From Xenophilus aerolatus (lineage in GTDB: Bacteria; Pseudomonadota; Gammaproteobacteria; Burkholderiales; Burkholderiaceae_C): a DNA stretch of 64,000 bases. Location: the NCBI GenBank assembly GCA_029968055.1, contig JASCNX010000008.1, positions 1 through 64,000 on the forward strand. The letters are read 5' to 3'. The notes beneath the pieces are model-generated. The model saw only the letters and a list, made by a program, of their open reading frames with translations. It had not been told where the DNA came from and did no database searches. Position numbers and translations under genes: made by a program. Shown piece after piece: positions 8,563-63,216 of the stretch; the stretch's first letter is position 1; each line of letters begins with the position of its first letter.

Positions 8563-8578
8563 TCGCGGGCATCCCCTC

Positions 8579-9409
8579 GTGCGACGCCTGCGCCACCTCA
8601 CCGGCCGCCACCGCGCTCCGTCCACCAACCGGATGCTGGGCCTGCTGCTGGCCTTCAATGCGGGCGCGATGAACGCGGGCGGCTTCCTGGTGCTGCACAT
8701 GTACACCTCGCACATGACCGGCTTCGCCTCGCAGATCGCCGACGCGATCGTGCTGGGCCACAGCACGCTGCTGCTCAACGCGCTGGGCGCGATCCTGGCC
8801 TTCGTCTGCGGCGCGGCGGTGGCGGCCATCCAGATCAACTGGGGCCGCCAGCACCGCCTGCGCCATCCCTACGCGCTGCCGCTGCTGCTCGAAGCCGCAC
8901 TGCTGCTGCCCTTCGGCCTCATGGGCGCGCTCACGCTGAACTGGCACACGCCCTTCGCCGTGCCGCTGACCGTGCTGTTGCTGTCCTTCACCATGGGCCT
9001 GCAGAACGCGCTGGCGGCCAAGACCTCGGCCGGCAAGGTCCGCACCACGCACATGACCGGCAACCTCACCGACCTGGGCATCGAGCTGGGCAAGATGCTG
9101 TACTGGAACCGGCGCGACCGCACGGACGGCGAGCGCGTGCATCACGACAGCCCGCGGCTGCGCTTCTTCGGCGCCCTGGTGCTGATGTTCGTGGCCGGCG
9201 GACTGGCGGGCGCCGCAGGCTTCAAGTACCTCGGATTCATCTGCGTGCTGCCGCTCGCGGCACTGCTGCTGTCGCTGTCGCTGCCGCCCTTTCTCGAAGA
9301 CGTGCGGCGCTCGCGCGAACTGCGCCAGGCCCTGCAGGCCGCGTCGGACGTGCTGCGCCTGCGGCGGCGCCACCCGCCGCCGGGCGACGCGCCGCGTCCC
9401 CCCGCGTAG
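8579..9409 (+). CDS. DUF1275 (YoaK-family) membrane protein
   Basis: This is a 276-residue polytopic inner-membrane protein of the DUF1275 family, whose function is unknown. It shows the family pattern AFNAGAMNAGGFLVLHMYTSHMTG and TMGLQNALAAKTS...VRTTHMTGNLTDLGIELG, with about six helices. I chose the GTG at 8579 because the N-terminus RRLRHLTGRHRAPSTNRMLG matches how family members begin; the ATG at 8633 would remove that segment. It sits between glcE (16-base gap) and glcF (33-base gap) on the same strand, so it is probably co-transcribed with them. A link to glycolate use is only positional. Confidence 0.85.
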   Translation: MRRLRHLTGRHRAPSTNRMLGLLLAFNAGAMNAGGFLVLHMYTSHMTGFASQIADAIVLGHSTLLLNALGAILAFVCGAAVAAIQINWGRQHRLRHPYALPLLLEAALLLPFGLMGALTLNWHTPFAVPLTVLLLSFTMGLQNALAAKTSAGKVRTTHMTGNLTDLGIELGKMLYWNRRDRTDGERVHHDSPRLRFFGALVLMFVAGGLAGAAGFKYLGFICVLPLAALLLSLSLPPFLEDVRRSRELRQALQAASDVLRLRRRHPPPGDAPRPPA

Positions 9410-48880: not shown

Positions 48881-49531
48881 ATGGCCGCCACCCTCATCCG
48901 TGACCAGACCCCCGGCGAAGAGATCGCCAACGCCATCAGCCACGGCCTGGGCTGCCTGCTCGCCATCGCGTCGCTCCCCATCCTCGTGCAGCACGCCGCC
49001 CAGCGCGGCGACCCGGCCCAGGTCGTCGCCGCCAGCGTCTTCGCCGGCACCGCCATCCTGCTGTACCTCGTCTCCACCCTGTACCACGCGCTGCCGCCCG
49101 GCCGCACCAAGCTCTGGTTCAACCGGCTCGACCACGCGTCGATCTACCTCTTCATCGCCGGCAGCTACATGCCCTTCGTCCTGGGCGTGCTCAAGGGCGC
49201 CTGGGGCTGGTCGCTCTTCGCCATCGTGTGGGCCGCCGCCGCCATCGGCGTCGGCGCCAAGCTGCTCGACCGGCTGAAGCACCCGCTGTGGTCCACGGGC
49301 CTCTACGTGGCCATGGGCTGGGTCGCCGTGGTGGCCGCCGTCCCGCTCATCGAGCGCATGTCGGCCGCGGGGCTGTGGTGGCTGCTGGCCGGGGGCGTGT
49401 CGTACACGCTGGGGGCGGTGGTCTTCCTGCTCGATTCACGGGTGCGGTATGCGCACTTCGTGTGGCACCTGTTCGTGCTGGGGGGGAGCATGTGTCACTT
49501 CTTTGCGGCGTTGTGGCATTCGGCGGCGTGA
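48881..49531 (+). CDS. hemolysin III / adiponectin-receptor-family membrane protein
   Basis: This 216-residue protein with seven helices is of the YqfA/HlyIII (PAQR) family. It has the metal-binding histidine patterns: GEEIANAISHGLGCLLAIAS at the N-terminus, LVSTLYHALPPG, the FNRLDHASIYLFIAGSYMPF block and the C-terminal HFVWHLFVLGGSMCHFFA. These are predicted to be zinc-dependent hydrolase-like membrane proteins, with no proven hemolytic role. The ATG at 48881 starts right before the first helix region. It is the last intact chromosomal gene before the accessory segment. Confidence 0.9.
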   Translation: MAATLIRDQTPGEEIANAISHGLGCLLAIASLPILVQHAAQRGDPAQVVAASVFAGTAILLYLVSTLYHALPPGRTKLWFNRLDHASIYLFIAGSYMPFVLGVLKGAWGWSLFAIVWAAAAIGVGAKLLDRLKHPLWSTGLYVAMGWVAVVAAVPLIERMSAAGLWWLLAGGVSYTLGAVVFLLDSRVRYAHFVWHLFVLGGSMCHFFAALWHSAA

Positions 49532-49539
49532 GGCCGGCG

Positions 49540-49819
49540 GTCACGAAGACATCCTGCGCGAGTTCTGCGGCCACAGCATCGGCCGCATCTACCACGACGA
49601 ACCCAACGTGCTGCACTACGGACGCCGCGGCGAAGGCCTCGTGCTCGAGCCCGGCACGGCCTTCACAATCGAGCCCACGCTCAACGCCGGCGCTTACGAC
49701 ATCCGCCGCCTGCCCGACGGCTGGGCCGTGTCAGCAAGGACAGGTCGCTGTCGGCGCTGTGGGAGCTCATTGTGGCGGTGATCGAGGAGAGGGGTGAGTT
49801 GTTGATGGAGTTGGCGTGA
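49540..49819 (+). pseudogene. 3' remnant of methionine aminopeptidase (map-like), frameshifted
   Basis: The segment codes for the C-terminal third of a type I methionine aminopeptidase. It contains REFCGHSIGRIYHDEPNVLHYG, GLVLEPGTAFTIEPTLNAGA with a metal-ligand glutamate, and RRLPDGWAVS. Then a one-base shift near 49729 is needed to continue as KDRSLSALWELIVAVIEERG up to TGA at 49817-49819. The first two-thirds of the gene are missing. It directly follows the hemolysin III-type gene and marks the left border of the accessory island. Confidence 0.88.
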
Positions 49820-49870
49820 AAGGATGCTGAGCATTGCCGTACGCCTCCGCTATTCGAAGAGCTCCAAGTC

Positions 49871-50575
49871 TCATGCATTGACTAGACACTTGGACAACGG
49901 CTTGCCCTTGATCCAACTCGCCGGATGATGCATGCGAAAGCGCGTGACCGTTTTGCCCAAAGAACCAACGAGCTCCGTTTCCACCAGGTCGCGGAGCTTT
50001 GGCTTGCAGTTAAAACCTGCAGTACAGCAATTGACCACGACGTCGCCAGGCGAAACCCAATGGTTCAACCGCGCGCGGAACAGAAACTTCGTCGCATCTT
50101 GTTCCCACGCATGAGCAAAGATTCTGTCCCTGCGCATCTTCCATTCTTTCGCAGGGCGGGAATCGCCCTGGGAGCACTGGTAGGGAATGGCGTTGAAAAG
50201 AATCAAGCCGATGTCCAAGGGCACGCTGAGGAGGTCCGCCAGTTCCAAGGCTCGGCTCTGGATGTTCTCGCCCGTCGCTCCGTTTGCTGGCCACGGGGTG
50301 TAGCAGTGCGTCGGATCGTATTCATCGACGTGCGGGGACTCTAGCACCATGACCAAGCACTTGGTCGCTGGCCTGGCGATGCGCGCGGTCGCAGTGTCCG
50401 CTATGAGCCAACGACCCAGATCACTGGCCGGCAGCATGAGCGGCAAGCTCTGGAGGCAGCCGACAAAAACATCTGGCACCCCGGTCTCGTGTGCCTCGGC
50501 GTCCGGGGCTCTACCCAGGGCTTTGCGCACCATTTCCCCGAACTTCAGATTGGCGGAAGCGAAGCTAGAGCTCAT
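49871..50575 (-). CDS. uncharacterised protein with LESPHxDEY motif
   Basis: The protein has 234 residues from the ATG at 50575; an in-frame ATG at 50599 is an alternative. I do not recognise a named family. Conserved-looking blocks are CLVMVLESPHVDEYDP (motif at 79-86), GATGENI (99-105), DIGLILFNAIPYQCSQGD (about 121-138) and DVVVNCCTAGFNCKPKLRDLV. These acidic/His/Asn-rich turns after hydrophobic strands resemble a nucleotide- or DNA-acting alpha/beta enzyme. It lies at the left side of the lower-GC island, divergent from the GIY-YIG-type gene. A defence role is only suggested by location. Confidence 0.65.
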   Translation of the reverse strand: MSSSFASANLKFGEMVRKALGRAPDAEAHETGVPDVFVGCLQSLPLMLPASDLGRWLIADTATARIARPATKCLVMVLESPHVDEYDPTHCYTPWPANGATGENIQSRALELADLLSVPLDIGLILFNAIPYQCSQGDSRPAKEWKMRRDRIFAHAWEQDATKFLFRARLNHWVSPGDVVVNCCTAGFNCKPKLRDLVETELVGSLGKTVTRFRMHHPASWIKGKPLSKCLVNA

Positions 50576-50767
50576 GCCTGATATTCTCGCCTGCGGCATG
50601 TCCCGGGGGGCAGGATGCTGATCCCCTTTGGATTCCCGAATTCGTGCGCAGCTACACGGCGACACCTTCGCCTAGTCGGTTGATTCCTAAAGTTGGGCCT
50701 CAGCGTACAGCGCACTATTGATCAGCTTTCGAGATTGTGGGTCCGTATACAACCCAAGGAGGTCTCA

Positions 50768-50803
50768 ATGCACCAGCAGTGGAACAGGTCCTCTTCACCA
50801 TGA
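50768..50803 (+). CDS. 11-codon upstream ORF with strong ribosome site
   Basis: AAGGAGGT lies five bases before the ATG at 50768, the best ribosome site in this region. The ORF reads MHQQWNRSSSP and stops at TGA 50801-50803, which overlaps the ATG of the next gene (ATGA). The main gene has no good ribosome site of its own, so this tiny ORF probably feeds ribosomes to it. Confidence 0.5.
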   Translation: MHQQWNRSSSP

Positions 50804-51618
50804 AATCTGAGAGCCAAGATTGCGCTGACGTCGTTGGTATGCTTAAGGCTCTTTTCAAAGAGCACGTTCAGGCGTTTGCCTGCGCGAACAGCGAGCTCCG
50901 ATTCAATAAAAAGCACCACATCGGGAAAGCAATGTGGGCATGGCTCATAGACGGGGGCCATGTATCTGCAGATGTTCGCGAGCAAGCCGAGGTTCGCCGA
51001 ATTGACCGTAAGACCGGTCCAGAAGGTCACCCGCTGTGGCGGGTAGCCTTTAGACATACGGTGCGCAGCGCTGAAGTGTTGGACAAGCTCTTTGACGGCA
51101 AGAGGGTGGGACCAACGCCTTTGTATGCGCGCCTTGTTGAGCAAGGTTTGGTGCCGCGGGACCCCGCTGAATTTATGAAGCCTCGTGCCGAGCGTCGAGA
51201 CGCGGCGGGCAACACAAGCTCTAGTGGATCGGCGCGATCTAAAGCACTAAAGTACATAGCAAGTCAGGAACTTGACTTGAGCCCTGAAGGCACCGAGTGG
51301 GTGTATATCTACACCACAGCGCGAGAACTCAGCAACCATGCGGAGCACGGCATCAGGCCGCTTTTAAAGGTTGGCAGCACAAAGCACCACTACACGGACC
51401 GCATCGCTGCTCAAGCTGGCAGCACTGCCGCCCACTCAACGTTGGTTTGCCTTTACGCTTACCGCGTGGTGAGCTCTCGAACCTTAGAGAGCATCGTCCA
51501 CCGGGCTTTGAAGCAGCAAGACCGCCACATTAAAGACGCGCCTGGAGTCGAATGGTTTGGAGCGACACCCGAGGAAGTGCACGGGCTTGTGCTGAAGCTC
51601 TCCAGCGGCGCGCCATGA
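50800..51618 (+). CDS. GIY-YIG / T5orf172-type nuclease-like protein
   Basis: This 272-residue protein has an N-terminal helical region (1-165) with no recognised family. Its C-terminal domain (about 172-270) has the T5orf172/MUG113 branch of the GIY-YIG pattern: WVYIYTTARELS, LLKVGSTKHHYTDRIAAQ (conserved K, G, R), LESIVHRALKQQDRH and GVEWFGATPEEVHGLV. The catalytic-type Tyr, Arg and Glu positions are plausibly present. I chose the ATG at 50800 because of the ATGA overlap with the upstream small ORF; the GTG at 50737 has no ribosome site. It converges with res. Confidence 0.72.
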   Translation: MKSESQDCADVVGMLKALFKEHVQAFACANSELRFNKKHHIGKAMWAWLIDGGHVSADVREQAEVRRIDRKTGPEGHPLWRVAFRHTVRSAEVLDKLFDGKRVGPTPLYARLVEQGLVPRDPAEFMKPRAERRDAAGNTSSSGSARSKALKYIASQELDLSPEGTEWVYIYTTARELSNHAEHGIRPLLKVGSTKHHYTDRIAAQAGSTAAHSTLVCLYAYRVVSSRTLESIVHRALKQQDRHIKDAPGVEWFGATPEEVHGLVLKLSSGAP

Positions 51619-51761
51619 AGGAGCAAAAGCTTTTAATTGTCAGCGTGGGGGGCCACTAGGATGTTCGCGGCTCCGGTCTTGTCCTGAGCGACCTGAATTG
51701 CCGAGAAGCGCAGAGTCAGCTCAACGACGTGGTGCAGCTATTGCCGAGCATATGGAGTGCG

Positions 51762-54134
51762 CTACTTCAAGCATTCCTTGATCGCGTCCTCCATTGTCCC
51801 GACGTGAATTGGCGCTGGATTGCCGCTCTTCATCTTCCAGACGGTAAATCCTTCCTTTGCCGGTTTTTCCATCAGTTTCTTTTGCTTGCCTTCGGTGATG
51901 AAGCGAACATGTAGCTTCACTTGGTCGTCTTCGAAGATGTCGAAAAGCTTCCGGGCTACGGCGTCGGACAGTAAGTGCCCGCCTTTGGTGTCGATGCAGA
52001 AGACCTTCTTGCCCTTCCAGACCAGGAAGTCCGGATAGAACGCTCCGGTGTCGCCTTCGGTAAGCAGCGGGATGCTGAAGCCTCCTGACACTGCGTTGCG
52101 ATGCCAGGGGAGGCCTGTCTGGTCGAGGGCCGCCGCGCAGGGCAGCTCTAGCTTGTTAAGCCCCGAGTAGCGCTCATAGAGCGAGTTCTCGTAGGCCGGC
52201 GAACCCTTCTTGGCCCGGATTGGTCCGAAGTGGAACGGTTGGAATGACGCGTATGAGAGCTCGGCAAGCTGGAAGTAGGCCTCGGCGATCCGGCTGGCGT
52301 AGGACTCCGCGAGCTTGTTGGCGGTGCTCTGGATCTGCACCCGCACGTCGAATTTGGGATCGTCTAGGTGCGTGGCAGCGAGCGCGCCACCTGATCGCGC
52401 CTTTAACGCCAGGGCGGCAAGCCAACGCAGCCGCACGGGGTTTGTGTTGCCCTTAACAATCCAATTCGGCGAGTCTTCGGCAACCTTAAGCATTTTTAGG
52501 TCGATCACGTTCGAGGCAGCTCGCGCTTGCGCCGTGGTGTTCTCGTCCCCTGCCTTGAACGTAGGGAACTCCGCGACGATCTCAGCGATCTTTTCACTCG
52601 CGGCCGTCGAATCCACGTTCACATGTCCCAAAGGCGCGTCGACGCCGTCCCTAGGCCAGAGATCCTCGGCCGCCGACCCCTTCGAGCCGTAGTTTTCCAC
52701 GACCTCGATCGGAGCGCCCTCAGCTTGCAGTCTCTCGCGCACCTTGCGGATGGTGTCGGTGAAGACGCTCTCCCTGTCGACCCGGAGGAAGAAGTGCGCG
52801 GTGTCCAGCAGCGGCGACCCATGGTGCTTGGCGCCAGGCTGGCGCAGAGCGCGCCCGATGATCTGCTCAACCTGCACCGCAGAGCCCATGCTCTTGTCGA
52901 TGTAGGCGCAGTAGCACTCGGGATCGTCCCAGCCCTCCTGCAGCGCCTGGTTAAAGATGATGTGCTTAAAGTCGCCGGCAGAGAACTTGTCGAAATCGTC
53001 GTCGCCCTTTGAAAACAAGTTGACCTGCTTCGGCTTATTGCCGTCGAAGGCGAGATTCGCGTATATCGCGATGTCCTTCGGGTCGACGTTCTTCTTCTCC
53101 ACCAAGTATCGCCAGATGCGGATCGGCGGCGCCTTGCGGTGCTCGAACGCATCGCTCGGGTTGTCCTTCTCATCTTTGCCGACCATGTTGGTGTTCGAGA
53201 CGTAGAACGCCTTGGGGCGTATGCGAAGGCCCAGCGTCTTGATCTCAGCTTCAAGCGACTCCAAACGGGCGACGAGCTCGTCCAGGCAGAACTCCATCTG
53301 TGCGGTGGTGCCGTCGAAATGGATTGACTTCTTCACGAGCTGCGCGTCGACCACCTTGCCACTTGGCACCGTCGTCGTGATGAAGAGCTCCACCGCCGGC
53401 TTGCCGCCTTCGTCCGTGGCCCCGAGCGTTTGAAAGTCAGCCAGGTCGTCGCCGCTGTCAGCTTGATCAATCCAACCTTCGAAGGGGCGCACGACGTTCT
53501 TGTTGAAGTTCTCAGGTAGGCGCAATGTGGCCGAGGCGAGCAGGTAGGCGTCGGGCTCGAGCTCCGCGAGAATGTCCGCCTGTTGCTCTGAGAGGTTGTG
53601 GCCCTCGTCGTAGACGATCAAGAGGGGTCGCCGCTTGCTTTCGAATTGCCGCTCGCGCAGTCGGTCCCACGCGGACTTCTCACCGAACTGGTCCTCGTCC
53701 TTCTGGTAGATGTTGAGAGAGCCTTCGGCTTGGTCCTTATTGTTGAACAAGCCCGTGGTGGCCATCACGATCAGCGGCGTGGTGCCGTCCTCGATCAGCT
53801 TCGGCGCAAGCTGCGGCACGGTGATGACGCGGAAGCCCTCGATGATCTCGCTGTATTTGCCGCCGGCTGAGAAGTTGTTGTAGGTCTGGCCCACAACCGA
53901 CTTCGCCTTTGACATCCAGAACACGATCGGCTGCGACGCGAAGTGCGCTCGCATCAGCGCCACCGCTTGCGCGAGGATGGGGGTCTTGCCAGCGCCCGTG
54001 AGCGCCGACAAGCCCTGGAAGAACGGACGATGACGGCCCTTGTATGTGGGTCGGTACTCGTGGTTCGCGAAAAAGGCGTAGCGGTCGACGATGAGTTTGG
54101 CGGATTCCGCTTGGAAGGCTTTTAGTTCAAGCAT
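51762..54134 (-). CDS. res: Type III-like restriction enzyme subunit Res (helicase-nuclease)
   Basis: The 790-residue protein is somewhat shorter than many Type III Res subunits. It has a DEAD-type helicase with Walker A LTGAGKTP (45-52) and Walker B DEGH (176-179, VYDEGHNLSEQQADIL). A long motor region carries the helicase-2 motifs (FNQALQEGWDDPECYCAY, VEQIIGRALRQPGAKHHG). A C-terminal PD-(D/E)xK-like site is YPDFLVWKGKKVFCIDTKG near residue 730, with Asp in the usual Glu place. It cuts DNA only with Mod. Its start overlaps the mod stop by 8 bases. Confidence 0.92.
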   Translation of the reverse strand: MLELKAFQAESAKLIVDRYAFFANHEYRPTYKGRHRPFFQGLSALTGAGKTPILAQAVALMRAHFASQPIVFWMSKAKSVVGQTYNNFSAGGKYSEIIEGFRVITVPQLAPKLIEDGTTPLIVMATTGLFNNKDQAEGSLNIYQKDEDQFGEKSAWDRLRERQFESKRRPLLIVYDEGHNLSEQQADILAELEPDAYLLASATLRLPENFNKNVVRPFEGWIDQADSGDDLADFQTLGATDEGGKPAVELFITTTVPSGKVVDAQLVKKSIHFDGTTAQMEFCLDELVARLESLEAEIKTLGLRIRPKAFYVSNTNMVGKDEKDNPSDAFEHRKAPPIRIWRYLVEKKNVDPKDIAIYANLAFDGNKPKQVNLFSKGDDDFDKFSAGDFKHIIFNQALQEGWDDPECYCAYIDKSMGSAVQVEQIIGRALRQPGAKHHGSPLLDTAHFFLRVDRESVFTDTIRKVRERLQAEGAPIEVVENYGSKGSAAEDLWPRDGVDAPLGHVNVDSTAASEKIAEIVAEFPTFKAGDENTTAQARAASNVIDLKMLKVAEDSPNWIVKGNTNPVRLRWLAALALKARSGGALAATHLDDPKFDVRVQIQSTANKLAESYASRIAEAYFQLAELSYASFQPFHFGPIRAKKGSPAYENSLYERYSGLNKLELPCAAALDQTGLPWHRNAVSGGFSIPLLTEGDTGAFYPDFLVWKGKKVFCIDTKGGHLLSDAVARKLFDIFEDDQVKLHVRFITEGKQKKLMEKPAKEGFTVWKMKSGNPAPIHVGTMEDAIKECLK

Positions 54135-56088
54135 GCGCCTGCTCGTGGACCGCTTCGTTGTTGTAGGCGTCGGTGCGGCTGTTGAAGCCGATGTGCTCGA
54201 GCACCGAGTCGGGGATCTTGTAGAACTCGATACCGGCGCCGGTGTAGGTCGCGAGCGACGCGTAGATGTGATACCTCGTCGCGAGCTTGCTCGCGCGCGC
54301 CTCTTCGACGACACGCCGGAACGCCTCGGAGTCCAGCAGCGACGGTTTGTCTGGCGCGTCCCAGACCAGGAAGAAGCCCTCCTCGCGGGCGTTAACGGCG
54401 AACAAGTGTCGGTGCGACCCTGCCGGCAGGCGCTTCAAGTAGCTTCGCGACTTCTCCGTCTTGTCCCAATAGCTAGTAAGTAGAAGATCGATCATTTCCT
54501 CGCGCGCGAGCGCGTTGACGGCGCTCGCGTCGATGACGTCGCGCCGCAGCTCCAAGAAACGGAAGCCTCCGGCGAGCGGCTTCGCCTTCGTTTTGCCAGG
54601 GGCAGCCCACTCGCCAGTAATGGCGCGGCGGATGCGCTCGGCTGTCAGGCTCTTGGCGTAGTGGTCGCCCTTGTCGGTGTTGCCCTGCTCGATGAGGATG
54701 AAGCGGCGATTGGCCTCTGTCTCCGAGTTGAGCTCCAAAACGGCGTGCCCGGTCGTCCCCGACCCCGCGAAAGGATCGAGCACTATGCCGTTTGGCCGGC
54801 ACCAGATAGAGATGATCTTTTTGATCAACTTCAACGGCTTCACGGTCTCAAACTTGTGGCCCTTACCAACGATCGCGTCAAGCTCCTCGACCCCGTCGCG
54901 CGAGCGCCCACTCATGTTGCGCAGCCAGGACACCGCGTCGAGTTCCGCGGGGCCCTCCTTGTCGTCTACCCAGAACGACTGCGGGACCGCGCCTTGCTTG
55001 ACAAGATTCTTGTAGACCTTCTTGACGGGCTTCTGCTCCCCGTCTTGGCCCCAATACAGCACGGGCCACGTGCCTTTCTGATGGCGGGCCTGAGCTCTCT
55101 TACGAGCCGCGGCGATGACGGCCTTCTTCTGCGCCGTGCTCTTGGCCGCTTTCCAGCCAACGAGAGCCAGTGCCTTACCGCGTCCATCGCCGAGGTCTAT
55201 ATCCTCGTATTTGACGTCCCACTCCTCGGCCCATGTCTTAATGGTCAGGCGCTTGGCTGCCCAGTGGCGCTCGCCGGGGTCGTGGAAGTCTCCGGTAAAC
55301 GGCGACTGGATCGCATAGTTAGCCGCGGCGCTTGGACCCTTGCCGGTCAAGTCGCCCTGTTTCCATTCGTGGGGATCCTCGTCGACGCTCTTCTTGAATC
55401 TCGCGTCTGCGAGCGCGGAGCGCTCAACCGTCCCGGTCTTGGCCCGCTCGACGGACTTCGCGTAGACCAGGACGTATTCGGTCGTGACCGTGATGTGGGC
55501 AGCTTGGTTCTTCGGCGTCGTCTTCTGCCAGTTAATCACCGCGAGGCGGTTCTCTTCCAGGAAAATCTCGTCCATTAGCATGCCGAGGCGATAGAGCTCC
55601 CGATGGTCAATGCAAATCGCGATCACGCCGCCTGGTTTAAGCATCTCGCGCATCATCCAGAGGCGCGGCGTCATGAATTTCAGCCACTTGCTATGGCGCG
55701 ATCCGTCGTCGGCCGGCACGATGTCGCCCAGGTCCGGGTCGTTGGGATCCTTATCCCACTTGTCGTTGTAGCGGAAGTCTGAGCCGGTGTTGTAGGGCGG
55801 GTCGGCGACGATCAGGTCGACTTGGCCGCGATACTTGTAGAGCGTCACCATCGTCGACAGGTTCTCCCCGTCCCAGATCTCGTTCTCGCACTGACGATGC
55901 TCTTCGCCGTGCGAATACTTCTTGACGATCTTGCTCATCTTCGGCTTGACTTGCCGAATGATCTGCCAAGGCGCCGTGCGCCCTGTGTAGTTCATGACGA
56001 TCCCGTTTTTGCCTGCTTCGCGGTTCGCCGCCTCTTGCTCTTGCAACAGGCGGATCAGAGCCGCCTTGGGCATCTGCTCGTAATCCAT
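54127..56088 (-). CDS. mod: Type III-like DNA adenine methyltransferase subunit Mod
   Basis: This 653-residue beta-class N6-adenine methyltransferase has the catalytic motif DPPYNTG at 96-102 placed before the SAM-binding FAGSGTT at 440-446. Between them lies a long variable target-recognition region (about 180-420). It methylates the recognition site and guides Res. A GAGGAG ribosome site six bases before the ATG at 56088 decides the start; the frame is open to an ATG at 56202 but that stretch contains a hairpin and lacks a ribosome site. It is co-transcribed with res. Confidence 0.94.
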   Translation of the reverse strand: MDYEQMPKAALIRLLQEQEAANREAGKNGIVMNYTGRTAPWQIIRQVKPKMSKIVKKYSHGEEHRQCENEIWDGENLSTMVTLYKYRGQVDLIVADPPYNTGSDFRYNDKWDKDPNDPDLGDIVPADDGSRHSKWLKFMTPRLWMMREMLKPGGVIAICIDHRELYRLGMLMDEIFLEENRLAVINWQKTTPKNQAAHITVTTEYVLVYAKSVERAKTGTVERSALADARFKKSVDEDPHEWKQGDLTGKGPSAAANYAIQSPFTGDFHDPGERHWAAKRLTIKTWAEEWDVKYEDIDLGDGRGKALALVGWKAAKSTAQKKAVIAAARKRAQARHQKGTWPVLYWGQDGEQKPVKKVYKNLVKQGAVPQSFWVDDKEGPAELDAVSWLRNMSGRSRDGVEELDAIVGKGHKFETVKPLKLIKKIISIWCRPNGIVLDPFAGSGTTGHAVLELNSETEANRRFILIEQGNTDKGDHYAKSLTAERIRRAITGEWAAPGKTKAKPLAGGFRFLELRRDVIDASAVNALAREEMIDLLLTSYWDKTEKSRSYLKRLPAGSHRHLFAVNAREEGFFLVWDAPDKPSLLDSEAFRRVVEEARASKLATRYHIYASLATYTGAGIEFYKIPDSVLEHIGFNSRTDAYNNEAVHEQAHA

Positions 56089-56128
56089 GTTTCTCCTCGC
56101 GAGCGCGCCTGTCGGCGGCGCCAATAAC

Positions 56129-56151
56129 AAAACCGCCGGAGGCGGTTTTTT
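56129..56151. terminator. hairpin with T-run just upstream of mod
   Basis: AAAACCGCC-GGA-GGCGGTTTTTT forms a 9-bp stem with T-runs on both strands, six T on the plus strand and four plus two on the minus strand. On the minus strand it lies 41 bases before the mod ATG, so it would stop or attenuate transcription coming from the LexA-like box side. Confidence 0.6.
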
Positions 56152-56212
56152 CAGCTCATCATAGCTATCGAAGAGCGAAAGCTGACTTTCGAGCGCATGC
56201 ATGTTTCTGCAC

Positions 56213-56428
56213 TCATTGCGCGCGCGTTAGTCGTCCCCAACCAGCTTTAACCAGAGCCAGACGCCAGACGGCTTCGTCAGGCGGAGGTTCGCATAGCTTC
56301 TCGTCACGCCAGACTTCGATCCCCGCTGCTGCCGGCTCGGGTAGGGGAATGATGCGCCAGCGCTCCCCCGCTGCGCCGCGCGGCTCGCAATCATTGGCTA
56401 GGAATGAGTTGGTCCATTTGCGAATCAT
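56213..56428 (-). CDS. possible small protein upstream of mod
   Basis: The frame encodes 71 residues (MIRKWTNSFLANDCEPRGAA start, Pro/Glu-rich middle, VKAGWGRLTRAQ end) with no recognised family. Its ATG directly abuts a LexA-like palindrome, which leaves almost no room for a leader, and a TATGAT hexamer overlaps its start. It may be a leaderless small gene or a chance frame. It is read toward mod on the same strand. Confidence 0.3.
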   Translation of the reverse strand: MIRKWTNSFLANDCEPRGAAGERWRIIPLPEPAAAGIEVWRDEKLCEPPPDEAVWRLALVKAGWGRLTRAQ

Positions 56429-56448
56429 ACTGGTTATTTATCCAGTAT
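56429..56448. promoter_or_regulatory. LexA-like (SOS) box
   Basis: TACTGGTTATTTATCCAGTA has the CTG-N10-CAG core with TA/TA flanks of an SOS box, though the fourth base is G rather than T. On the minus strand a TTGCCA and a TATGAT hexamer flank it, so LexA binding would cover a promoter directed at the small ORF and mod. It lies in an AT-rich patch of the island. Confidence 0.5.
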
Positions 56449-56646
56449 TGGCAAGCCATGAGCTCACTCGACTAGATCCGCGCCTGCGACCAGGCGAAGC
56501 TTGCTGTCGATGCAGAGTCCGCTGCTAGTCAAAGTTGGCGTTCGCGACCTGGCCATGACAGGCGGCTCTTAGCCTGGAGCCGACACCACAGCAGTTGCAG
56601 AGGTTAATTAATGGTCGTCGGATTGAGCTTTGTAGGCCAAATCTAT

Positions 56647-57010
56647 CGCTGCTGCTTCCACCGCCTAACCGTCACCCTCTCCACCGCCGCGAAGGCCAAA
56701 CTCTCCACCTCCAACCCAATCAGCACCACCAGCGCCAACTCGGCGAACACGCGGTCGGTGTGGAGCTCGTTGCGGTTCTGGAAGATGTATTAGCCCAAGC
56801 CGCCCTTGCCCGAGCTGGCGCAGAAGACGAATTCGGCGGCGATGAGGGTGCGTCAGGCCAAGACCCAACCGATCTTCATCAGGCCCGACAGGGTGGCGGG
56901 GTCCGTCGTCTGCAGCACTTCGCGCAGCCCAGTCAGGTCGTCCTTGCGGCCGGCCATGCTCAGGGTTTCGGGCAGGCCTTGAAAGCCCCCATACTTGTTT
57001 AGCGCCAGCG
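56647..57010 (-). pseudogene. decayed 3' copy of the ABC permease gene at 62329-63216
   Basis: The minus strand reads like the last 120 codons of the downstream permease: LALNKYGGFQGLPETLSMAGR, then GASSGKGGLG-type residues and NRNELHTDRVFAELALVVLI. Two tryptophan codons of the intact gene are stop codons here (TGA at 56853-56855, TAA at 56790-56792). Small insertions and deletions also occur. The 5' two-thirds are absent. The copy has the same orientation as the intact gene 5.7 kb away. It marks the right side of the restriction island. Confidence 0.9.
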
Positions 57011-57020
57011 TGCCCATCAT

Positions 57021-57968
57021 CTATTCCCTCGCCCACCGCTTCAATTCCCGCACCACCGCCCCCACGCCCTCCCCTCGCTCATCCCCCCGCCACAGCACCC
57101 CAATCGCCTCCGGCGCCCCCGGCACCGCCACTGGCAACCGCCGTAACTGCCCACCCTCCACAGACCGCCCCATGTGGCTCTCCAGCCCCACGTACAGCAG
57201 CTGCAGCCGCTGCATCAGCGCCACGCTCAGCGCGACGGTGCGGGTGTCGACGCGTGCCACGGGCGGCGTGGTGCCCCATTGCGCGCACAGCTGCACGAAG
57301 GCGCGGTGCGGCGGCGAATCGACGGGCGGCAGCAGCCAGGTGGCGGCGGTGCAGCTGCGGGCGCTCACGCTGCGGCGTGACGCGAGCGGGTGGTCGACGG
57401 GGGCATACACGGCCAGGCGGTCGTGCACCAGGGGCGTGAAGACAAAACCTGCGGGCACTTCCACGCCGGCGCGGCACAGCACGATGTCGACGCTGTCGTC
57501 CTGGCACAGCGCAGGGATGTCGGCGGCCTCGATCTCGCGGTAGTCGATCCACAGCTCGGGGTGGGCGGCGCACAGCGCGGGCAGGGCGGGCGCGGCGATG
57601 GCGGTGCTGGCGGCCGCGATGCCGGCGATGCGCACCACGCCGGCGGCGCCCTGGCCGACCTGCGCGGCGTCGTGGGCCAGCCGCTCGAAGCCGGCAATGG
57701 CGTGCTTGAGCGCGGGCAGCAGCAGGGCGCCTTCCCGGGTCGGGCGCACGCCGCGCGCGTGGCGGTCGAACAGGGTCACGCCCAGCAGGGCCTCGACGCG
57801 GTTGAGCGCCTCGGTGGCCGAGGGCTGGGCCATGCCGAGCGAGGCGGCCGCCTTCTGGATCGCGCCCAGCTCGGCCATGCGCACGACCAGCTGCAGCTGC
57901 CGCGGCCGCGCGTAGTGCAGCAGGCGGCGGGCAAGGCTGGCAGACGCGTCGGGCAGGGCAGGGGGCAT
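57021..57968 (-). CDS. LysR-family transcriptional regulator
   Basis: This 315-residue protein has an N-terminal helix-turn-helix (about 25-85: RQLQLVVRMAELGAIQKAAASLGMAQPSATEALNRVE shown in part as GAIQKAAASLGMAQPSA) and an effector domain. A PcaQ/GbpR-like character is suggested by the start of the binding region. I chose the ATG at 57968; the frame extends to a TTG at 57998. It is divergent from a Bug receptor gene with a 134-base gap, the usual layout of a LysR regulator with its target. The inducer is unknown. Confidence 0.88.
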   Translation of the reverse strand: MPPALPDASASLARRLLHYARPRQLQLVVRMAELGAIQKAAASLGMAQPSATEALNRVEALLGVTLFDRHARGVRPTREGALLLPALKHAIAGFERLAHDAAQVGQGAAGVVRIAGIAAASTAIAAPALPALCAAHPELWIDYREIEAADIPALCQDDSVDIVLCRAGVEVPAGFVFTPLVHDRLAVYAPVDHPLASRRSVSARSCTAATWLLPPVDSPPHRAFVQLCAQWGTTPPVARVDTRTVALSVALMQRLQLLYVGLESHMGRSVEGGQLRRLPVAVPGAPEAIGVLWRGDERGEGVGAVVRELKRWARE

Positions 57969-58102
57969 GGGCGGGCGCTCCGGCAAGGTATAGGCCAATT
58001 CGATGGCTGGGCTGCATTCTGCCGTTGCGGCCTGCAGCCGGGGCCGAGAAGATCGCGTCGCGCTTCCCTGAACAACGACGAGACCGACGGAGACAGACAG
58101 AC

Positions 58103-59152
58103 ATGCCGATGCACCGCATCACCACCACCCGCACGCCCGCGACCCCCGATTCCTTCCTGCCCGCCCGCCTCGCGCGGCGCCGCGCCTGCCTGCTCGCAGC
58201 CTTGGCCGTGCTCGGCGTCGGCGCCGCAACGCTGCACTTACCGGCCGAGGCGCAGGCATACCCGTCCAAGTCGATCACCCTCGTGGTGCCCTATCCGGCC
58301 GGCGGCGCTACCGACGCGGCGGCGCGTCTGGTCGCCACGCAGCTGGGCCAGGTGCTGGGGCAGACGGTGGTGGTCGACAACGTGGCGGGCGCCTCGGGCG
58401 CGATCGCGGCGCAGAAGGTGGTGCGGGCCGCGCCCGACGGCTACACGCTGCTGGCCGGCACCATCAACGAGGTGGTGTTGGCGCCCATCGTCAGCACCGG
58501 CACGCCCTACAAGTACCAGGACCTGGCGCCGGTGGGCGAGGTGGGCTCGACGCCCTTCGTGCTGGTGGCCAACCCCAAGGTGGCGGCCAGCCAGATTGAC
58601 GAGCTGCTGGCGCTTGTGCGCAAGAACCCCGGCAAGGTCAACGTCGGCATTCCGGGCATCGGCACGCTGCAGCACATCGCGGTCGCGGCCCTGGCCGGCC
58701 AGGCCAAGCTCGACTGGACGACGGTGCCCTACAAGGGCGCGGCGCCGCTCAATGCCGACCTGCTCGGCGGGCAGGTCGACCTGGCGGTGGTCACGCTGCC
58801 CTCGGCCATCGGCTACATCGCCGACGGCAAGCTCAAGTCGCTGGGCCTGATGAGCCTGCAGCGCGACGAGCGCGCCAGCGACCTGCCGACCATCAACGAA
58901 GGCCGCGAGATCAAGAACTTCAGCACCGACGCCTGGCTGGGCCTGCTGGCGCCGGCCAGGACGCCCGCACCCGTCGTGGCCAGGCTCAACGCCGCGCTGG
59001 CCGAGGTGTTGAAGAAGCCCGAGCTGCGCGAGGGCCTGGTCAAGATCGGCTTCAAGGTCAACCCCGGCAGCGCGGCCGACTTCGCCCAGCGCATGGCGCG
59101 CGACGACAAGCGCTACCGCGAGGTGGCCGCGACGGTGAAGCTCGACCGATGA
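58103..59152 (+). CDS. tripartite tricarboxylate transporter (Bug-family) substrate-binding protein
   Basis: This 349-residue periplasmic receptor has a long N-region before the signal helix (about 30-55: ACLLAALAVLGVGAATLHLP) and Bug marks: ITLVVPYPAGGATDAAARLV, VVVDNVAGASGAIAAQKVV, APDGYTLLAGTINEVVLAPI and VPYKGAAPLNADLLGGQVD. A GGAG motif lies before the ATG at 58103. It is followed by a fumarase/cycloisomerase-family gene and regulated probably by the divergent LysR. No TctAB membrane partner is present. Confidence 0.92.
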   Translation: MPMHRITTTRTPATPDSFLPARLARRRACLLAALAVLGVGAATLHLPAEAQAYPSKSITLVVPYPAGGATDAAARLVATQLGQVLGQTVVVDNVAGASGAIAAQKVVRAAPDGYTLLAGTINEVVLAPIVSTGTPYKYQDLAPVGEVGSTPFVLVANPKVAASQIDELLALVRKNPGKVNVGIPGIGTLQHIAVAALAGQAKLDWTTVPYKGAAPLNADLLGGQVDLAVVTLPSAIGYIADGKLKSLGLMSLQRDERASDLPTINEGREIKNFSTDAWLGLLAPARTPAPVVARLNAALAEVLKKPELREGLVKIGFKVNPGSAADFAQRMARDDKRYREVAATVKLDR

Positions 59153-59180
59153 ACGACGACAACGCCGAAGCGGCCTGCCG

Positions 59181-60503
59181 ATGATCTGCCTGTCCGACGA
59201 GCCGGCGTCCACGCCGGCGGGCCACGCGATGCGCGCCCTCTTTTCCGCGCAGGCCAGCGTGGCGCACATCCTGCAGGTCGAGGCGGCGCTGGCGCGCGTG
59301 CAGGCACGCCACGGCATCGTGCCGCAGGCGGCGGCCGACGACATCACGGCCTGCGCGACGCTGGCCGACTTTCCCGTCGACGAATGGGAGCGCCAGCGCG
59401 CGCGCGTGGGGCACCCGCTGGTCGCCATCCTCGAAGCCTGGTCGAGCCGCCTTGCGCCCGACAGCCGCGAATGGCTGCACTACGGCGCGACCACGGCCGA
59501 CCTGTTCAACACCGTGCTGGTGATGCAGCTGCAGGCGGCCGGGCATGCGCTCGTGGCGCAGATGCAGGGCGTCGCGCAGCGCCTCGCGGCCCTGGCCGTG
59601 GAGCATCGCGCCACGCCGATGGTCGCGCGCACGCTGGGCCGCCATGCGCTGCCCTTCACCTTCGGCATGAAGGTGGGCACCTGGCTGGCCGAGCACGGGC
59701 GCAGCACGGCGCGGCTGCAGCACTGGCTGGCGCAGTACCGCACCGGCATCCTGAGCGGCGCCGTGGGCACCTATGCGTCCTTCGGCGCCGCGGGCCCGGC
59801 CATCGAGCGCGAGGTCATGGCCGAGCTGGGCCTGGCCGAACCCGAGGCCGTCGACTGGAAGGGCAGCCGCGACCGCTTTGCCGAGTTCGGCTGCGTCGTC
59901 GCGCTGGCGGCGCGCACCTGCGGGCACATGGCGCACGAGGTCTTCCTGCTGGCCGGCGACGACATCGACGAGCTGCGCGAGGCGAACGGCGCCGTGGGCT
60001 CGTCGACCATGCCGCACAAGTCGAACCCGTCGCTGTGCATCGAGGTCGTCTCGCGTGCGCGCGAAGTCAGTGCACGGCTGCAGCCGCTGCTCGACTGGAT
60101 CGGCATGGTCTACGACCGCGATTCGGCCCAGCACGGCGACGTGCTGCGCGACCAGTGCGTGGGCATGGCCGACCTGCTGGCGCAGCTCGATCGCCTGTTC
60201 GATGTGCTGGTGGTCATGCCCGAGCACATGGCGGCCAACCTGCAGCGCACGCAGGGCATGGTGCTGTCGGAGGCGCTGACCTTCGCGCTGGCCGCCCGCA
60301 TGGGCAAGCACAGCGCGCACCACGCGGTGCAGCGCCTGGTGCGCACCGCGCGCGAATGCGGCTGCTCGCTGCAGGACGCCGCGCGCGACGACCCGGCCAT
60401 CGCGCCCTGGCTGGCCGAGCAGCCCGACCTGCTCGACGTGCGGGCCTACACCGGCCGCGCGCCGCAGATCGCCGACGCCGCGGCGGCCGCCTGGCGCGGT
60501 TGA
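59181..60503 (+). CDS. adenylosuccinate lyase/3-carboxymuconate cycloisomerase (PcaB-like) family protein
   Basis: This 440-residue helical lyase is of the fumarase/aspartase superfamily. It shows the superfamily signature GSSTMPHKSNPSLCIE, the N-terminal LHYGATTADLFNTVLVMQ and the middle RHALPFTFGMKVGTWLAEH block. PcaB converts 3-carboxy-cis,cis-muconate to a lactone, but no other pca gene lies here. The pair with a Bug receptor suggests it acts on an imported di- or tricarboxylate. The specific reaction is open. Confidence 0.85.
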   Translation: MICLSDEPASTPAGHAMRALFSAQASVAHILQVEAALARVQARHGIVPQAAADDITACATLADFPVDEWERQRARVGHPLVAILEAWSSRLAPDSREWLHYGATTADLFNTVLVMQLQAAGHALVAQMQGVAQRLAALAVEHRATPMVARTLGRHALPFTFGMKVGTWLAEHGRSTARLQHWLAQYRTGILSGAVGTYASFGAAGPAIEREVMAELGLAEPEAVDWKGSRDRFAEFGCVVALAARTCGHMAHEVFLLAGDDIDELREANGAVGSSTMPHKSNPSLCIEVVSRAREVSARLQPLLDWIGMVYDRDSAQHGDVLRDQCVGMADLLAQLDRLFDVLVVMPEHMAANLQRTQGMVLSEALTFALAARMGKHSAHHAVQRLVRTARECGCSLQDAARDDPAIAPWLAEQPDLLDVRAYTGRAPQIADAAAAAWRG

Positions 60504-60640
60504 GCGCGCGGGGGCGGCGAGGCTGCGCTGCTCAGCGGCACGCCGGCCGCATAGCCCTCGGGCAGCAAGATGGCGAGACCGCAGCCTTGGCAACGAACTC
60601 GCCGCTGGCGATTCGGGAGTGAGACTGCAGTCCCGCAACC

Positions 60641-61126
60641 TCAACGCCGCGGCTGGTAGAGCGGGTCGCCCATTTGGCAGGGGCACTCATGTGGACATGC
60701 CGGCAAGAAGTCGAGTTGCACACCCACTACGCGTGTGCTCTCGCTTGCCCCCGCTGCCGAAGAATTCGGCACCACGACGTAGCCTCTTCGTGGGAGATCG
60801 ATTCGGGCCTTGGACTGCAGGTTTTCCTTCAGGACGCGAGCGACATTGCGCCCACGCTCCAAGCCAAGCCCCTCAGGCCTGTGGTCACGCTCCCACGGCT
60901 CAACCGAAGCCTCTACATCGATCGATTCATGGTTTGGGTATCGTTCTTCCAGCCCGGCCATCCAATCCGCCAACTTCAGCACCTGATCGGCAGGCACCAC
61001 GGACGAGTTGGGATAGAAGGTCACCGCGATGGACTTGACCGGGCTGCAGGCAAGCACCCCCCCCGGCCCCAGAGCCGCCATCACCGGTAGTAGCAAATTG
61101 ACAAGGGGACGGCCGAATTTCCACAT
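60641..61126 (-). CDS. lipoprotein with OmpA-like features, partner of the PAAR protein
   Basis: This 161-residue protein has a lipoprotein signal (lipobox VLAC with the cysteine at residue 27) and then a domain whose VTFYPNSSVVPADQVLKLADW and LGLERGRNVARVLKENLQSK blocks resemble the OmpA/MotB peptidoglycan-binding pattern. I chose the ATG at 61126. It starts five bases after the stop of the PAAR-metallopeptidase gene, so both are one transcript. A periplasmic immunity or accessory role is a reasonable inference, not shown by residues. Confidence 0.7.
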   Translation of the reverse strand: MWKFGRPLVNLLLPVMAALGPGGVLACSPVKSIAVTFYPNSSVVPADQVLKLADWMAGLEERYPNHESIDVEASVEPWERDHRPEGLGLERGRNVARVLKENLQSKARIDLPRRGYVVVPNSSAAGASESTRVVGVQLDFLPACPHECPCQMGDPLYQPRR

Positions 61127-61131
61127 GGCGC

Positions 61132-62142
61132 TCAGTCCCCCACCACGCCCAGGATGTAAGACGCAAGACTGTCGGCGTTCATCTGCGATTTCGATTCTTT
61201 CGCATGAGCTCGTGAATTCCGCGTGCCGTACCAATGATCGAACGAGCCGAACGTGTCATCGAAGTGGGTGACCTCATGGACCAAGGTCAAGAGGCGGGAG
61301 TCACCATCGAGTGCCTCGCCCGTGTCGAAGTTGACCCTGTTGTCGTATCGAAAGCTGCAAAACTCCAACGCGATGGCAATGGTGTGTGTGGCCGTGTCGG
61401 GCTTGCACGCTGCTGCCGCAGTGCCACGGTCAGCTTCTAGAACGCAAGTTGCCAGCTTACCGCCACCGATGTACCGCACGAAATTTTTGGGCTCCAGTCC
61501 TTGGAGCACGCGAGCGCATGAGGTCAAACCTTTTTGCAGATGGTCGCGGGTGCCCTGATCGGCCACGCCGAACCACAGTTTCACTCGGGCCTGCGCCGGC
61601 TTGTCCCAGCGATCCAACTCGGGAAGCCTCTTCTTGGTGATGTGGTCGAGCGCCATGTCGCGCAGCTTCATCGCCAGTGTGGCGAACTCCTTGTTCGTCA
61701 TGTTCGGGCAGATGTTCTCCGTCGGCTCCGCTTCTGGCGGATGGTCGACAAAGTCGTCAACGATCTTCTTGCTTGCGGCTTGTTCCTGATGGTTCAGGGC
61801 GTACCAATCGCTGGCAGCAATGTTCACGTCGAACTCCCGACTGTCGCCGCCCAGGTCATCCACGTATGACGTGGTCTGCAAGGTCGACAGGATCAGTGGC
61901 GGAACCGGGCAATGACAGACGACCACATCGCCTTCCAGAGCCACTTCGGCCCCATAGAAACCATTGCGGCGCGGGCCGCCAGCTTTCGCGATGATGCCGA
62001 TGCTGTTGCATCCCTCGCAGTAGGCGCGCCCGCCAATGAGGGCTACTCGATGTCCATGGATGGTGAACTCGGGTCCGCTGTATGGGAGGACGTGACCGCC
62101 GGGTACTGGCGGGTCTCCCACCACGAGGATTCTTCTGTGCAT
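61132..62142 (-). CDS. PAAR-domain protein with C-terminal aspzincin (M35-type) metallopeptidase, putative Type VI secretion effector
   Basis: The protein has 336 residues. Residues 1-90 look like a PAAR spike tip (GDPPVPGGHVLPYSGPEFTI, HRVALIGGRAYCEGC, AKAGGPRR, ALEGDVVVCHCPVPP). Residues about 150-336 form a peptidase domain with HEVTH at 289-293 and GSFDHWYG at 299-306, fitting the aspzincin rule HExxH plus G(T/S)xDxxYG. A PAAR tip would carry it on a Type VI spike to cleave target proteins. AGGGAG lies before the ATG. The lipoprotein gene follows. No vgrG or tss gene is in the window. Confidence 0.82.
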   Translation of the reverse strand: MHRRILVVGDPPVPGGHVLPYSGPEFTIHGHRVALIGGRAYCEGCNSIGIIAKAGGPRRNGFYGAEVALEGDVVVCHCPVPPLILSTLQTTSYVDDLGGDSREFDVNIAASDWYALNHQEQAASKKIVDDFVDHPPEAEPTENICPNMTNKEFATLAMKLRDMALDHITKKRLPELDRWDKPAQARVKLWFGVADQGTRDHLQKGLTSCARVLQGLEPKNFVRYIGGGKLATCVLEADRGTAAAACKPDTATHTIAIALEFCSFRYDNRVNFDTGEALDGDSRLLTLVHEVTHFDDTFGSFDHWYGTRNSRAHAKESKSQMNADSLASYILGVVGD

Positions 62143-62185
62143 CGCTCTCCCTTCGAAATTACGAGGCCGGTGACAGTCGGCCTAT

Positions 62186-62206
62186 CAAAAAGCCCCCTAG
62201 GGGGCC
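62186..62206 (-). terminator. rho-independent terminator after the ABC permease gene
   Basis: On the minus strand the perfect palindrome AGCCCCCTAGGGGGCT is followed by a run of T. It lies 120 bases after the permease stop and before the PAAR gene, which separates the importer transcript from the effector cassette. Confidence 0.65.
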
Positions 62207-62328
62207 GGAGGGCTGGGGCAGTTGAGCGAGGAGGCACCCTCTTCGCATCTTGCATATCCCCAGCGGGCGGAATTCTAAGTACCCGCTAGCGCACTTGTTC
62301 CGGGAACGCCGGCGGGATCACGTGCCCG

Positions 62329-63212
62329 TCAGCGCTGCTGCCCCCACCGCCGCACGGTGACGCGTTCCAGCGTCGCGAAGGCCAGGCTCTCCACCGCCAG
62401 CCCGATCAGCACCACCAGCGCCAACCCCGCGAACACGCGGTCCGTGTAGAGCTCGTTGCGGTTCTGGAAGATGTACCACCCCAGCCCGCCCTTGCCCGAG
62501 CTGGCGCCGAAGACGAGTTCGGCGGCGATGAGGGTGCGCCAGGCGAAGGCCCAGCCGATCTTCAGGCCCGAGAGGATGGCGGGCAGGGCGGCGGGGACCA
62601 GGATCTGCAGCACGTAGCGCAGGCCGGTGAGGCCGTAGTTGCGGCCGGCCATGCGCAGCGTTTCGGGCACGCCCTGAAAGCCCGCGTACGTGTTCAGCGC
62701 CAGCGGCCACAGCACCGAGTGGATGAGCACGAAGACGAGGCTGCCCTGGCCCAGGCCGAACCACAGCAGCGCCAGCGGCAGCAGCGCGATGGCGGGCAGG
62801 GGGTTGAACATCGACGTGAGGGTGCTCAGCAGGTCGCGGCCGATCTGGGTCGACACGGCGAGGGTGGTGAGCGCGAAGGCGAGCAGCACGCCGGCCACGT
62901 AGCCCTTGAGCAGCACCGACAGCGAGATCGCGGTCTTGGCGACGAGCTCGCCGCTGGCGATGCCCTGCACCAGCGCCTTGGCGGTGGCGGTGAAGGTGGG
63001 CAGCAGCAGGTCGTTGTCCTGCCAGCGCGCGAGCAGCTCCCACAGCACGGCGAGCACCACGAGGATCAAGCCCTTGCGCAGCCAGACTTGCGACCACAGG
63101 CGCGTGGTCCATGGCAGTTCGCGTTCTACGGCGTCGCCGGTCCAGGGCTCCAGGGGGCGTTCGTATTCGGGCCGCACGGGCGGCACCGACGGCGTGGGCG
63201 GCAGCACGGCGC

Positions 63213-63216
<4 letters not shown>
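62329..63216 (-). CDS. ABC transporter permease (nitrate/sulfonate/taurine type)
   Basis: This 295-residue inner-membrane permease has six helices. The EAA-loop region shows ETLRMAGRNYGLTGLRYVLQI and PAALPAILSGLKIGWAFAW, typical of the SsuC/TauC group. The ending is VERVTVRRWGQQR-like (LERVTVRRWGQQR). Its ATG overlaps the stop of the upstream ATPase (ATGA). A truncated, stop-containing copy of its 3' third lies at 56647-57010. Confidence 0.94.

Follow-up and report, generated by a model that had tools for sequence, protein, structure and literature searches.

A PAAR–aspzincin protein and its OmpA-fold neighbour as a probable type VI effector–immunity pair in Xenophilus aerolatus

The stretch of Xenophilus aerolatus DNA analysed here (64,000 nt, hereafter the window) carries a reading frame for a two-domain protein, called the effector below, and on the same strand a small partner gene that starts 5 nt downstream of the effector stop codon (Table 1). 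We counted the partner coordinates from this ATG, where the ORF listing gave an upstream TTG start. An initial annotation of the locus had read the N-terminus of the effector as a PAAR spike tip and its C-terminus as an aspzincin-type metallopeptidase, citing the motifs HEVTH and GSFDHWYG. Both domains were recovered by Pfam above the curated cut-offs, with 37.9 bits for PAAR (cut-off 27) and 36.9 bits for Aspzincin_M35 (cut-off 30), and the motifs place the HEVTH residues at H289–H293 and the Asp of GSFDHWYG at D302. A copy of the effector at 93% identity is intact in two congener assemblies, and a paralogue at 55% identity lies on contig C5 of the same genome (the window copy is on C8), so the frame is not a chance one. 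Residues 1–94, which include the PAAR domain, had no meaningful match among PDB sequences, no NCBIfam family was matched among the 45 effectors described below, and no match was found among phage records. The predicted model of the effector (mean pLDDT 41.7, from a 5-row alignment) was too low in confidence for fold searches or for zinc-ligand geometry.

Table 1. Coordinates of the features discussed, in window positions.
Feature	Position	Strand	Description
PAAR–aspzincin effector	61132–62142	minus	336 aa, ATG start; Pfam PF05488 and PF14521 over cut-offs
PAAR domain, residues 8–80	61903–62121	minus	PF05488, E 2.1e-9
Aspzincin_M35 domain, residues 182–329	61156–61599	minus	PF14521, E 5.9e-9; aligned to both 1g12 and 2x3a
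Zinc site, H289-E290-x-x-H293 to D302	61237–61278	minus	Invariant in 45/45; aligned with 1g12 positions 117, 118, 121, 130
Partner gene, probable immunity protein	60641–61126	minus	161 aa, signal sequence and OmpA-fold domain; ATG 61126; family profile and model; linkage
Variable stretch holding the cassette	49535–62328		12.8 kb; not present in congener G002 between the permease gene and a haemolysin-III-like gene (BLAST of L075)
ABC transporter permease gene bordering the variable stretch	62329–63216	minus	PF00528; present as one gene in congeners that lack the cassette

Relatives of the toxin domain were taken from one scan of named genomes, which gave 49 loci, nearly all in genera that we take to belong to the Burkholderiales (by title, L014 and L015 come from the same strain, assembled twice). 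We aligned 45 effectors, namely the window copy, its paralogue and those of 43 loci; L015 was left out, as were L031, whose PAAR part is broken, and L046, L055, L059 and L062, whose frames are broken. All 45 gave an aspzincin family match (E up to 0.01). Besides the four residues of the zinc site, N322 and D324 are invariant throughout this alignment, and Y305 is conserved in 43 of the 45. When a profile of five effector sequences was compared with known structures, the four residues of the site fell on the chain positions of 1g12 listed in Table 1 (E 1.6e-6), which we take to be the zinc ligands and the catalytic Glu of the fungal peptidyl-Lys metalloendopeptidase; the same profile also matched the Aeromonas endopeptidase 2x3a (E 4.5e-6). 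The effector thus resembles the aspzincins 1g12 (a Grifola-type peptidyl-Lys metalloendopeptidase) and 2x3a (a toxic endopeptidase of Aeromonas) in its HExxH, in an Asp nine residues past the second His and in an NAD motif, and with HExxH and a downstream Asp as putative third zinc ligand its sequence is that of an aspzincin. Aspzincins of the 1g12 and 2x3a type are secreted enzymes, and we know of none with a PAAR domain or an OmpA-fold partner. Finally, the toxin domain has four conserved cysteines (C145 and C233 in 45/45, C246 in 44/45 and C262 in 41/45), a feature that would fit folding outside the cytoplasm.

The N-terminal part is more variable in kind. A PAAR domain was matched in 25 of the 45 aligned effectors, and the other 20, all intact, are without one, showing that PAAR is not the sole delivery route. 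Judged by eye, these 20 have almost no leader in 2 cases, a FKIPGPxG-like leader in 5 (Comamonas and Delftia; L041, L043, L044, L045 and L047) and some other short leader in 13. The FKIPGPxG-like sequence may be another delivery leader of the type VI secretion system (T6SS).

The initial annotation had linked the effector to a T6SS and had called it an orphan. A search of the whole genome (11 contigs) found T6SS genes on contig C2, encoding TssF, TssG, a ClpV-type ATPase, VgrG, DUF2169, Hcp, VipA, VipB and ImpA_N proteins; there is one VipB match and there are three VgrG matches (one partial), all on contigs other than that of the window. Eight T6SS queries from the genome had no match in the window. 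The effector is therefore an orphan as far as the window goes, but not at the level of the genome. Among 399 evenly sampled family genomes, the toxin domain occurred in nine (E up to 1e-8, one match partial) and VipB in 139, and every one of the nine toxin carriers had VipB (Fisher p 6.4e-5; 1.9e-4 if the partial match is left out); four of the nine T6SS-positive carriers belong to the genus of the window, so they do not amount to nine independent events. Of 38 named carrier genomes, 33 also have VipB; this tally started from 39 of the 49 loci, the other ten being, by title, from genomes or strains already included. The remaining five genomes show no VipB (those of L023, L025 and L026, all three of the PAAR type, and of L041 and L043), and we rejected the notion that every carrier has a T6SS. 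We likewise rejected the notion that the cassette travels with vgrG as a rule: within flanks of at most 6 kb (less at some loci), VgrG was found at 3 of the 49 loci (L038, L046 and, as a fragment, L036). T6SS queries other than VgrG had no match in the flanks of the 49 loci, and 36 neighbour proteins from 18 loci matched 55 Pfam families, with no T6SS family among the 25 of the 55 listed.

A PAAR domain related to that of the effector (53.6% identity over residues 1–97) is encoded on a plasmid of Robbsia andropogonis (L094), with a Tae4 gene (PF14113, E 5.2e-28) 3 nt downstream. The two proteins have related PAAR domains, but the cargo in Robbsia is a separate gene for a Tae4 amidase effector and there is no aspzincin inside the PAAR protein. 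Burkholderia arboris has another related PAAR domain, followed by an ORF that looks similar by eye. The proposed T6SS link is supported by the T6SS genes of the genome, by the enrichment of carriers for the sheath gene VipB and by the related PAAR domain ahead of an amidase effector gene. An enzymatic domain joined to a spike component, in a genome with T6SS genes, gives the protein the architecture of a specialised T6SS effector of the fusion type, predicted to be both secreted and toxic.

The DNA around the pair differs from the rest of the window. A lower-GC patch and a transferable cassette had been claimed before. The patch is confirmed, with a GC content of 59.5% at 61001–62000 versus roughly 70% across the bulk of the window and a second dip (56–62%) at 50–57 kb, and the mobility of the cassette is supported by a congener that lacks the variable stretch. 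In that congener (G002, L075) the end of the permease gene (62,329) is followed after 15 nt by sequence matching the window from 49,534 downwards, and congener G001 (L076) has a similar empty arrangement with a longer gap. These are two of eight congeners with a full-length permease; in the other six no match to the far side was found within the short flanks examined. The variable stretch also carries LysR, TctC and lyase genes. Pieces of the permease gene are repeated at 56647–57014 and 60534–60612, beside restriction-like genes and beside the cassette, and permease pieces likewise flank the 93% identical cassette in G005 (L068:6157–6382 and 8200–8638). Recombination at the permease gene is a likely cause of the variable stretch. 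No integrase was found among the ORFs of 49300–57100 (by eye) or among the Pfam-scanned island proteins. The restriction-like genes are a ResIII and N6_N4_Mtase pair at 51762–56202, in the low-GC part of the stretch, and a short reading frame at its far border (49530–49690, by eye) resembles what is presumably a fragment of a methionine aminopeptidase.

The gene adjoining the effector had been noted as a lipoprotein gene. The adjoining gene is there, but what it encodes is probably not a bystander lipoprotein; we found instead a conserved partner, apparently exported, with an OmpA fold. Its N-terminus is a hydrophobic leader ending VLA/C, a borderline lipobox by eye. In most relatives the site is AxA-like, many of them reading AxA/C or AE/C (also by eye), and the Cys at this place is one of two invariant ones. 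Sites of this type fit signal peptidase I. With its signal-like N-terminus, the partner is probably an exported protein.

PF00691 matched 20 of 47 partner members at E ≤1 (lowest 1.5e-6); the copy in the window did not appear among the matches listed. A profile of the partner family matched 6u83 (E 3.3e-6) and MotB (E 7.5e-6), and the predicted model of the partner (mean pLDDT 59.1, with weak ends, from a 5-row alignment) matched OprF and OmpA by Foldseek. For the 47 partners NCBIfam gave only weak MotB, YiaD and stray matches. Sequence profile and predicted fold agree in assigning the partner an OmpA-like domain, which shares with the domains of OmpA, Pal, MotB, YiaD and TagL its fold, the ordering of its elements and a conserved Arg in the second helix. 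The Arg of the presumed peptidoglycan-binding site is present in all 47 partners. The partner is unlike OmpA-like peptidoglycan-binding domains in that it has two invariant cysteines (C27 and C144, 47/47), has no anchor domain and, in 46 of the 47 members, has no Asp at the site: at the alignment position of the MotB Asp, 1 member has Asp and 7 have Glu. We take this Asp and the Arg to be the diaminopimelate-site residues of OmpA-like domains, and with the Asp gone the partner does not have the sequence expected of a functional peptidoglycan binder of this class.

The partner ORF lies beside the effector at 47 of the 49 loci, with a start between 32 nt before and 38 nt after the effector stop codon, although some of the script-assigned start codons are probably internal. 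At the two loci without a called partner ORF (L047 and L059) a disrupted partner can be read in separate frames, and at L020 the partner is frame-shifted, so that it is disrupted at 3 of the 49 loci. The linkage was also seen by eye in Cupriavidus and Caballeronia relatives (L096 and L097). Two loci have unusual arrangements. In Variovorax boronicumulans PgBe293 (L036:5596–7017) effector and partner form a single open frame with the signal-like stretch of the partner inside, and L046:6602–10760 contains a tandem pair of partner-like genes as well as a VgrG gene followed by an ORF with a FKIPGPxG-like leader and a different continuation.

Divergence rises along the pair: in the 24 pairs with a PAAR-type effector, median pairwise identity falls from 75% (PAAR domain) to 52% (toxin domain) and 24% (partner). 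Distances between toxins correlated with those between partners (r 0.78 over the 24 PAAR pairs and 0.83 over 43 pairs; in neither set did any of 5000 permutations reach the observed value), a correlation that is inflated by shared ancestry; for PAAR domain and partner the value was 0.36. The genome of the window has two matches for the effector (C8 and C5) and four strong ones for the partner family (C8, C6, C7 and C5; E ≤3.2e-32), and a fifth, weak match on contig C1 (E 9.2e-5) lies inside a long frame. The partner beside the C5 paralogue has 18% identity to that of the window. The copies on C6 (L090:3616–4170) and C7 (L091:3678–4124) are toxin-free. The DNA 5' of the C7 copy resembles the beginning of PAAR effector genes, from the region before the start codon to the first few codons (69.7% to L034 over 99 nt, E 2.4e-9, and likewise to L062), and this PAAR-like start runs directly into the partner, as if the body of the toxin had been lost. 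The C6 copy is preceded by a short tail reading NADSL, which is like the C-terminus of an effector and is the weaker evidence of the two. Linkage, rising divergence and toxin-free copies led us to read the partner as an immunity gene, most likely one whose product protects against a T6SS protease acting in the periplasm. A small gene constantly linked to a toxin gene, and also kept without it, is what an effector–immunity pair looks like in sequence, and the partner would accordingly be predicted to neutralise the toxin.

Altogether, the results suggest, with a probability that we put at about 0.78, that the two genes are a T6SS effector–immunity pair made up of a PAAR-borne aspzincin toxin, which would act in the periplasm of prey, and an exported OmpA-fold immunity protein. 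From these data we infer secretion, toxicity and protease activity, the site of action and the substrate, and inhibition by binding, in the following way. The PAAR domain would cap the VgrG spike of the cell's own T6SS, predicted to be the one encoded elsewhere in the genome, and the spike would carry the C-terminal aspzincin-type zinc endopeptidase into a neighbouring bacterium. There the toxin would cut envelope proteins in the oxidising periplasm, a place of action that the four conserved cysteines of the toxin fit. The exported OmpA-fold partner would stand in the periplasm of the producer, where it would bind and block toxin arriving from sister cells.

A comparable pair is known from the H2-T6SS of Pseudomonas aeruginosa, where the immunity protein PA0261 is exported, depends on its disulfides and binds the gluzincin toxin VgrG2b (PMC6899460). 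Both systems have an HExxH zinc peptidase C-terminal on a T6SS spike protein and an adjacent exported partner. In VgrG2b, which acts in the periplasm, the third ligand is Glu and the carrier is VgrG (PMC6899460), whereas the effector of the window has Asp, a PAAR carrier and an OmpA-fold partner. With Asp at the aligned place and a PAAR carrier, the effector falls outside the gluzincin family of VgrG2b as judged by its sequence. The Tox-MPTase polymorphic toxins are also alike, with an HExxH peptidase as the C-terminal toxin and an exchangeable N-terminal delivery part (PMC3482391); the accessible text of that paper has no mention of 'M35', 'deuterolysin' or 'lysine-specific', and no immunity family for Tox-MPTases is given among the table rows listed. 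An OmpA-fold T6SS immunity protein is not described in the accessible parts of PMC10763514 or PMC3482391. Our literature search, which covered mostly papers outside subscription and could miss a differently worded effector, found no link between aspzincins and the T6SS; under the aspzincin domain name it returned works that are fungal by title, and under PF14521 a mushroom genome paper.

A more specific version of the mechanism, which we regard as a tentative and rather doubtful extension, is immunity by substrate mimicry. The immunity protein would be a decoy of the toxin's target, and the aspzincin would cut OmpA-fold peptidoglycan tethers of the OmpA, Pal and MotB type in the prey periplasm. 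An OmpA-fold domain would then have given rise to the immunity protein, which would have kept the fold and the groove Arg, dropped peptidoglycan binding, diverged with each toxin and come to occupy the protease.

We think it improbable that the T6SS exports the protease against eukaryotes or into the medium, for use on predators or fungi or for nutrient release, with the OmpA-fold gene encoding an envelope protein or an anchor of the protease. The best-characterised aspzincins are, as we understand it, extracellular enzymes of fungi and Aeromonas, and the carrier genera are presumably for the most part soil and plant-associated, which would suit such a use; constant linkage, co-divergence of toxin and partner, and partners without toxin are however traits of immunity genes, and an anchor would need none of them. 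Slimmer still are the chances that the OmpA-fold protein, in place of giving immunity, acts as a second effector, as a chaperone or as a loading adaptor. OmpA-like domains have been proposed as toxins (PMC3482391) and the partner always adjoins the effector, but it is kept without the toxin at two sites of the genome, and with an export signal-like N-terminus (by eye) it would miss a spike assembled in the cytoplasm. Least of all do we expect the window copy to be a non-functional leftover, since its open frame, its full set of catalytic residues, the intact partner, the intact 93% copy in two congener assemblies and the VgrG genes of the genome stand against the lack of a T6SS gene nearby, the decay of the surrounding permease copies and the broken frames of several relatives.

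To our knowledge, T6SS proteases with known targets are few. If the reading as an effector–immunity pair is right, it adds a class of T6SS protease, an immunity fold, and a family at 49 loci whose leader is PAAR, a short PGP-type sequence or almost nothing. The partner, which had been overlooked, is the more novel half of the pair, and the OmpA fold of the presumed immunity protein would offer a direct lead to the target of the toxin. Should the immunity protein indeed be a decoy, it would point directly at what the toxin cuts in the prey.
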